From assembly GCA_035559435.1 (NCBI GenBank), contig DATMBC010000029.1:1-60350 (forward strand): a DNA stretch of 60,350 nucleotides, read 5' to 3'. The position numbers and the translations under genes are program-made. The number at the start of each line of letters is the position of its first letter. Positions within the stretch are counted from its first letter, which is position 1. Shown here in pieces: positions 30,119 through 32,065 of the stretch. Below the pieces are notes generated by a model that saw only the letters and a program-made list of their open reading frames with translations, did not search any database and was not told where the DNA came from. This stretch comes from a bacterium. Lineage in GTDB: Bacteria > Zixibacteria > MSB-5A5 > WJJR01.

Positions 30119-30901
30119 GTGAGTGAGAAGCGTTTTGCCAATCAGTTGGCGCTGGTGACCGGGGCCTCGTCGGGGATCGGGGCGGCGACCGCGCGCGCCT
30201 TCGCCGCCGAAGGGGCGCGGCTGATCATCGCCGCGCGCCGCGTCGACCGCCTCGAACAAATGGCCGCGGAGATGCGGTCGGCGCACGGCACCGAAGTCTT
30301 CGTGTTGGAGCTCGATTTGCTGAAACAGCGTGAGGCGATGGCGCGGCTGGAAGCGCTGCCGCCGGATTGGAAGACGGTCGACATACTCGTCAATAACGCC
30401 GGGTTGTCGCGCGGACTGGATAAACTGCACGAGGGCCGTTACGACGACTGGGAAGAGATGATCGAGGTCAACGTGAAGGGGCTATTGGCGGTCAGCCGGA
30501 CGGTGATTCCGTGGATGGTGGCGCGCGGCAAAGGGCATGTCATCAACATCGGCTCGATCGCCGGACGCGAGGTCTATCCGGGGGGCAACGTGTACTGCGC
30601 GTCGAAGTTCGCCGTGCGCGCGATCAACCGCGGCATGGCGATCGATCTGGTCGGCACGCCGATCCGGGTCACCACCATCGATCCGGCGCTGACCGAGACC
30701 GAATTCAGTCTGGTGCGGTATCGCGGCGACGCGAAGCGCGCGGCGGCGCCGTATCAGGGATTGCGGGCGCTCTCGGGTGAGGACATCGCCGACGCGATCC
30801 TCTGGGCGGCGTCGCGTCCGGCCCATGTCAACGTTTCCGAAATGGTGATCTATCCGACCGCGCAACGATCCGCGACGATAGTGCATCGCAACGACTCATA
30901 A
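30119..30901 (+). CDS. Short-chain dehydrogenase/reductase (YdfG-like)
   Basis: The 260-residue protein is a classical SDR: TGASSGIGAATARAFAAEGA is the NADP(H)-binding Gly motif, NNAG follows at about residue 90, and YCASKFAVRA supplies the catalytic Tyr and Lys with a Ser in GSIAG. The overall sequence is closest to the YdfG group, which acts on 3-hydroxy acids such as serine. The start is a GTG with GAGGAGC upstream. It is followed after 23 bases by the selenoprotein gene and then by the squalene/phytoene-synthase-like gene, so it heads a three-gene operon. Confidence 0.92.
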   Translation: MSEKRFANQLALVTGASSGIGAATARAFAAEGARLIIAARRVDRLEQMAAEMRSAHGTEVFVLELDLLKQREAMARLEALPPDWKTVDILVNNAGLSRGLDKLHEGRYDDWEEMIEVNVKGLLAVSRTVIPWMVARGKGHVINIGSIAGREVYPGGNVYCASKFAVRAINRGMAIDLVGTPIRVTTIDPALTETEFSLVRYRGDAKRAAAPYQGLRALSGEDIADAILWAASRPAHVNVSEMVIYPTAQRSATIVHRNDS

Positions 30902-30924
30902 CCCTGACGCCGAAAGGACGGGCC

Positions 30925-31146
30925 ATGGCCAAACGTGTCACGATCAAATACTGCAATGAGTGAAACTATCTTCCCCGCGCCGCCAGTCTGGCGGACGAAT
31001 TGAAGAAGACATTGGGTATCGACGCGGAGTTGATCGCCGGCAGCGGCGGCGTCTTCGAGGTCAAGGCCGATGGTCTGCTGGTCTTTTCGAAGAAAGTGGC
31101 GGGACGATTCCCGGAGCCGTCCGAGATCATCGCGGCGTTGAAATAG
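30925..31146 (+). CDS. SelW/Rdx family selenoprotein with in-frame UGA at the CxxU motif
   Basis: Read through one in-frame TGA (30961-30963), this is a 73-residue protein of the SelW/SelT/SelH (Rdx) family. The N-terminus is MAKRVTIKYCNEU, with selenocysteine at residue 13 in place of the second Cys of the CxxC motif. The following NYLPRAASLADELK and the end GSGGVFEVKADGLLVFSKK are the classic family consensus, continuing into GRFPEP. Nothing but the TGA interrupts the frame. AAAGGA lies before the ATG at 30925. The Rdx fold is thioredoxin-like and is thought to act in redox control. It lies between the SDR and the squalene-synthase-like gene. If Sec were not inserted, the product would be a 12-residue peptide. 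Confidence 0.9.
30978..30997 (+). promoter_or_regulatory. Candidate bacterial SECIS hairpin
   Basis: After the TGA, CCGCCA (30980-30985) pairs with TGGCGG (30989-30994) around a GTC loop. Two further pairs (30979-30996, 30978-30997) can extend it with one bulged A. The apex is about 22 bases after the UGA, in the usual range for bacterial SECIS elements, and the loop contains GU, the feature recognised by SelB. It is by-eye folding only. Confidence 0.6.
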
Positions 31147-31159
31147 GACCGATGCGCGC

Positions 31160-32065
31160 ATGAGCGCCCCGCTTGATTTGGACGCCGCCTATGCGGCCTG
31201 CGAAACGCTGGCCGGACGGGACAAGCCGCACCTGTATGCCGCGGCGCAGTTGTTCGAGCGCCCGGCGGTGCGACGCGCGTTTGTGGCCACCTACGCCTCC
31301 ATGCGGGTCATCGACGATGCGATTGACGGAATTCCCAACCGCGCTTCGCTGACCGCCGACCGGCGACGCAGCGAATTGGGACGGGTGGCGCGGTGGCTGG
31401 AGGCAGTGCATGCCGCCCGTCGGGGCACACCGTCACCGGGTCCGCTCTGGACCGCACTGGCGGACACGCTGGCGCGCTTTGACTTCCCGCTCGACCCCTG
31501 GCGGAACCTGGCGGAAGCGATGTCGGCCGATGTGGTCACTCCCTCCTTCCGCACCTGGGATGAGCTGCGTCGTTACATGCATGGCGCCTCGGTGGCGCCG
31601 GCCGTGGTCTTCATGTATCTGGTGCTGATGAAGCCGGGCGCGGACGGCATCTTTCGGACCGGCTGGAGCTACGAGCGCGTGTTGGCCGCCACCGAGGATC
31701 TGGCGGTCTTCTGCTATTGCGTGCACATCCTGCGCGATGTCGCCGTTGACCTGACGCTCGGTGAATCCGGGCTGGTCTACCTGCCGGAGGAAGATCTGTC
31801 GCGATTTGGGATGGAGCGCGACGATCTGCATCGGCTGCGCGACGCCGGGGTCGCCGACGGCGCTTATCGCCTGTTGGCGCGCTATGAGGCGCAACGGGCC
31901 TGGGAGCATCTGGCGCGCGGCCGTGCCCGTCTGCCGGAGATTCTGGCCGAGGCGGAGCCGTCCAACGGCCGGGCGCTGACCATCCTGATCGACACTTACG
32001 TACGCATTCTCGGCGCACTGCAGGAACGCGAGTTCGACGTTTTTGCCACCACGCCCACGGCCTGA
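31160..32065 (+). CDS. Squalene/phytoene synthase family protein
   Basis: The 301-residue protein belongs to the trans-isoprenyl diphosphate synthase (squalene/phytoene synthase) class. The first Asp-rich motif is seen as RVIDDAIDGI (residues about 48-57), and the second as HILRDVAVDL at about 193, where most members have an NxxRDxxED. The substitution of the acidic residue before the last Asp by Val is unusual. The substrates are likely two prenyl diphosphates (C15 or C20), with the exact product unknown. No downstream carotenoid or hopanoid gene is in the window. It starts 13 bases after the selenoprotein stop. Confidence 0.88.
   Translation: MSAPLDLDAAYAACETLAGRDKPHLYAAAQLFERPAVRRAFVATYASMRVIDDAIDGIPNRASLTADRRRSELGRVARWLEAVHAARRGTPSPGPLWTALADTLARFDFPLDPWRNLAEAMSADVVTPSFRTWDELRRYMHGASVAPAVVFMYLVLMKPGADGIFRTGWSYERVLAATEDLAVFCYCVHILRDVAVDLTLGESGLVYLPEEDLSRFGMERDDLHRLRDAGVADGAYRLLARYEAQRAWEHLARGRARLPEILAEAEPSNGRALTILIDTYVRILGALQEREFDVFATTPTA

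Follow-up and report, generated by a model that had tools for sequence, protein, structure and literature searches.

It is established for the SelW-like family that SelB and selenocysteyl-tRNA decode UGA as selenocysteine (Sec) at a hairpin. Bacterial SelW-like selenoproteins were reported in 2005–2006 (PMC1088965, PMC1794560), from the Sargasso Sea (PMC1088965) and from Geobacter, Desulfotalea and Symbiobacterium (PMC1794560). In the marine GOS set those with a CxxU motif outnumber every other prokaryotic selenoprotein family, with 427 genes (PMC2398784). The function of bacterial SelW has been called unclear, and in eukaryotes the SECIS element lies in the 3′ UTR (PMC1088965). Within the window analysed here, a stretch of 60,350 nucleotides, we found a frame that is very probably, as judged from sequence, a genuine SelW-like selenoprotein gene of the Rdx family, in which the TGA at codon 13 is read as Sec. 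The locus has the following features:

30119–30901, plus strand: SDR-family oxidoreductase gene, the upstream neighbour (Pfam adh_short, 176 bits; nearest named model YdfG of NCBIfam, below cut-off).
30911–30918, plus strand: ribosome-binding-site-like sequence GAAAGGAC, shortly 5′ of the selW ATG, recognised by its letters.
30925–31146, plus strand: putative selW-like (Rdx family) selenoprotein gene, 73 residues, CxxU at residues 10–13, ATG start, TAG terminator.
30961–30963, plus strand: in-frame TGA, presumably read as selenocysteine; all 19 aligned genes have TGA at this codon.
30978–30997, plus strand: bacterial SECIS-type hairpin, 8 pairs with one bulged A and a GUC triloop, 22 bases from TGA to loop.
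31160–32065, plus strand: squalene/phytoene-synthase family gene, the downstream neighbour (Pfam SQS_PSY, 126.8 bits; nearest named model HpnD of NCBIfam, below cut-off).

Translated with readthrough, the selW frame gives MAKRVTIKYCNE-U-NYLPRAASLADELKKTLGIDAELIAGSGGVFEVKADGLLVFSKKVAGRFPEPSEIIAALK before its terminator, and codon 13 is the single internal TGA. The readthrough product scored 74.2 bits against Pfam Rdx (cut-off 22.6), 97 bits against the NCBIfam SelT/SelW/SelH model NF041051 (cut-off 88) and 59.5 bits against TIGR02174 (cut-off 34.2), and it was also matched by sequence to solved SelW-related structures. In an AlphaFold2 model (mean pLDDT 89.3) the product adopts a thioredoxin-like fold; its redox motif follows the first strand, in the loop between strand E5–10 and helix H16–30. 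The motif comprises Cys10 and TGA13, and both columns are invariant as Cys or TGA in an alignment of 20 sequences. The initial annotation, made from the letters and their open reading frames, had described a SelW/Rdx gene with a good ribosome site, broken only by one TGA at the position of the second Cys of CxxC. Family membership was confirmed by Pfam, NCBIfam and the predicted fold, the single TGA was located at 30961–30963, and a ribosome-site-like sequence is present. Sense codons other than Cys or Sec, which that annotation had named as evidence to the contrary, do not occur in the aligned column, where only Cys or TGA is found.

A second Rdx gene is present in the same genome, on contig C74 (21192–21410; L001:1453–1737, minus strand). 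It carries the motif YCTQC and no TGA, scores better than the selenoprotein gene against Pfam Rdx (106.7 bits), and has Cys where selW has TGA in the alignment. Because none of the 24 other Rdx-bearing genomes of the phylum sample contains a Cys-type Rdx copy, the C74 gene may have been acquired horizontally.

The phylum sample searched for Rdx comprised 132 genomes, 25 of which bear the gene. Each of the 25 contains an Rdx gene broken by a single in-frame TGA, and the sole Rdx gene without a TGA is the extra Cys copy on C74. Codon-by-codon alignment of 19 genes placed the TGA of the window's selW and of 18 other homologues, drawn from many families of the class, at the identical codon; for the 6 further genomes the TGA rests on the stop count of the search. 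The same TGA in all 18 other aligned homologues argues that its presence is more than chance. For the codons 3′ of the TGA, comparison of selW with six relatives gave dN of 0.18–0.40 and dS of 0.9–1.5, and these codons are under purifying selection. A scan of viral contigs for selW relatives returned none, and a scan of GTDB contigs with the single selW protein as query returned only four distant relatives. When the window was scanned for other TGA-interrupted redox frames, no second credible selenoprotein was found.

The chance that UGA is generally reassigned in this organism, say to Trp or Gly, and that selenocysteine plays no part is negligible; no observation speaks for it. UGA terminates 6 of the 11 window frames examined, including the gene downstream of selW, as well as the selW genes of four relatives (G001, G002, G008 and G013), and Cys stands at the TGA position in the C74 paralogue, all of which refutes general reassignment. 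In those four selW genes (L027, L024, L030 and L038, respectively) TGA would serve as both Sec codon and stop within one short gene.

The bacterial SECIS model requires G as the first base of a 3-base loop, a spacing of 16–37 and a minimum free energy of −7.5 or lower (PMC13188914). The selW hairpin fits this model on every count, with its GUC loop, 22-base spacing and a minimum free energy of −14.6 kcal/mol (z = −3.0). Codon +7 after the TGA has C as its third base in 19 of 19 genes while the residue varies between Ala, Ser, Thr and Val. Ser occupies codon +8 in 17 genes, each time written AGT, and the remaining two genes carry GGT and AGG at this position; AGT makes up 8.6% of the Ser codons of five window genes. 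Across the 19 genes, hairpin support was scored by pair counts for the named structure instead of by an RNAalifold consensus. The six inner pairs were formed in 89.5% of cells, against 22–49% for slid partners, and covariation was 0.209, a value reached by 0 of 500 shuffles, against 0.101 in shuffled alignments. Covariation is clearest for a pair between the third positions of two Ala codons that are themselves invariant as residues; it is seen as C-G, G-C, U-G and G-U. The bases after the TGA are conserved beyond the needs of the protein and constrained at the RNA level. Variation in the outer pairs leaves the RNAalifold consensus with a weak energy (−0.46), and synonymous shuffling of the selW hairpin by itself gave a modest result, 3% of the shuffles folding equally well. 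A search of the hairpin region against Rfam gave no match.

That the TGA arose in a Cys-type Rdx gene by chance nonsense mutation, or is a sequencing error there, has practically no probability. Nothing speaks for it other than the Cys-only paralogue in the same genome, and it is refuted by the fixation of the TGA throughout the phylum sample and by the conserved hairpin that comes after it. The initial annotation had judged selenocysteine likelier than random nonsense from the single gene. That judgement is now supported by the conservation of the TGA, purifying selection, the SECIS hairpin and the class-wide occurrence of selA, tRNA-Sec and a TGA-containing selD (see below). The TGA of selW is almost certainly a Sec codon, at which Sec would be inserted into the product.

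From what is established for the family, decoding would proceed as follows. A ribosome would reach the UGA at codon 13, where the SECIS hairpin, starting about 15 bases 3′ of the UGA, would recruit SelB and selenocysteyl-tRNA(Sec). Sec would then take the place of the second Cys of CxxC, so that the thioredoxin-fold product would carry a Cys-x-x-Sec couple. By analogy with its family, the product is likely to act in thiol or selenol redox exchange, its counterpart being either a small thiol or another protein.

To find the decoding machinery, the source genome was searched by profiles, DNA comparison and sequence stretches. The assembly consists of 106 contigs and is rated 100% complete. Its selD gene, on contig C31, has a TGA at the catalytic Cys position, as do the selD genes of most relatives; a synonymous-shuffle hairpin test on selD was not significant (39%). 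Despite that rating, profile and tRNA searches of the 106 contigs did not find selA, selB or selC (tRNA-Sec), which is the weak point of the Sec reading. The seven best tRNA-Sec-like matches proved to be Leu, Ser, Arg and Gly tRNAs, and a selB-like match on C97, which at 181 bits stayed below the cut-off, was discounted as an apparent EF-Tu-type factor. The proposed search for selA, selB, selC and selD recovered one gene of the four, itself with a TGA. The claim of the initial annotation that this organism decodes Sec is supported by the TGA-containing selD, the conserved selW TGA and the hairpin; the selA, selB and selC that it implies are not in the assembly.

Among the source genome and 57 relatives, selA was found over the cut-off in 49 of 58 genomes and tRNA-Sec in 52 of 58, and selB was identified in G001 by Pfam and in G002 and G004 by similarity. 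The selA, selB and selC genes are almost universal in the class, and both same-genus relatives have them. In these two and in G004 they are clustered in the order selC-selA-selB. On one side the cluster is flanked by genes for an amidohydrolase and NfeD, and on the other by bshC and a bshA-like glycosyltransferase gene. This sel/bacillithiol block spans about 13.7 kb in the congeners, lying at about 57.4–71.2 kb of C40 in G001, and is absent as a whole from the source assembly. The first bases of contig C8 of the source assembly correspond to the far side of the block and run collinear with the congeners from there onward. The NfeD end of the region lies mid-contig on C65, 64 kb into 87 kb. 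There the neighbours of NfeD (L121:13500–17500) are HAD and DoxX genes, not amidohydrolase-selB, and synteny with the congeners is broken. This break is a rearrangement or an assembly misjoin.

A different reading of these data is that the lineage has recently lost selA, selB and selC together, leaving the TGA-containing selW and selD as early-terminating relics that have not yet decayed. We consider this unlikely. It accords with the absence of all three genes from the assembly, and with NfeD lying mid-contig beside DoxX and HAD genes on C65, where the region really is rearranged or misjoined. It fits poorly with the loss of the whole 13.7 kb block, bshC included, when bshC is present in 8 of 8 other relatives tested, and with contig C8, which from its first bases follows the gene order on the far side of the block, as expected had the block fallen between contigs. 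A fragmented relative (G003, 530 contigs) likewise has the TGA-containing selW, with neither selA nor tRNA-Sec over the cut-off. Intact selW and selD frames and the purifying selection on selW also speak against loss, although they would look no different after a recent one. If the three genes had indeed just been lost, the locus would offer a snapshot of a lineage losing a genetically encoded amino acid, before any change from Sec to Cys.

We judge it more likely that the block fell into an assembly gap than that Sec decoding was lost; the whole block including bshC is missing, and C8 starts just beyond it. We take the absence of the block to reflect a gap beside C8, together with a misjoined or rearranged C65, and infer that the organism's own selA, selB and selC lie in that gap. 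Absence of these genes from a complete genome had been named in the initial annotation as evidence against Sec; with an assembly in 106 contigs and the whole syntenic block missing, the absence seen here is not of that kind.

Other arrangements of sel genes were observed among the relatives. In G007 (C38, L137) a Cys-form selD (GLGCACK) is fused in frame behind a NifS-like cysteine desulfurase. Long selD frames of 734–902 amino acids in G011, G012, G020, G026, G027, G037 and G042 suggest the same fusion there. A TGA-containing selD coexists with a fused or long selD in some genomes (G007, G011). The selC-selA-selB cluster stands beside bacillithiol genes at L102 (G001:C40), L103 (G002:C112) and L104 (G004:C8), an adjacency that may point to which small thiol these selenium users employ.

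In the window, selW is separated by 23 bases from the SDR gene and by 13 bases from the squalene/phytoene-synthase-like gene, and this close spacing suggests that the three genes could be carried on one transcript. The SDR gene is also directly 5′ of selW in G001, G003 and G005, and the squalene/phytoene-synthase-like gene directly 3′ in G001–G005 and G008. The relatives' selW loci span 1.5 kb on each side, and a neighbour's absence elsewhere is weak evidence. No description of this context was found in the SelW selenoprotein literature searched. The initial annotation had called a setting with an SDR and an isoprenoid synthase undescribed; the neighbouring genes are real, and the remark holds to the extent of a neighbourhood conserved in one family.

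The finding gives a sparsely studied bacterial phylum a selenoprotein with good support and a Sec-decoding trait present almost throughout the class, and it corrects a gene that would be cut short or overlooked in standard annotation. The selW neighbourhood, together with the adjacency of sel and bacillithiol genes in relatives, offers an entry point to the thiol or partner of bacterial SelW. Knowledge of how selenoproteins are made is unchanged.

By predicted fold the product resembles the SelW-related bacterial structures 2fa8, 2ojl, 2obk, 3dex, 2oka and 2p0g over the whole protein (TM 0.88–0.94, 30–42% identity), and differs from those proteins in having a Sec codon at the second motif position. 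Mouse SelW (2npb) and MIEN1/C17orf37 (2ljk) belong to the same fold family (TM 0.68 and 0.78, respectively); they are eukaryotic and more distant than the bacterial structures. The closest counterparts are the bacterial SelW-like CxxU selenoproteins (PF10262, TIGR02174, NF041051), which are of the same family by profile and predicted fold and share Sec at the second motif position and a SECIS element directly 3′ of the UGA within the coding sequence. What differs from them is the position of the gene, in its family, between an SDR gene and a squalene/phytoene-synthase-like gene. The selW gene is a well-supported but ordinary addition to this long-known family.
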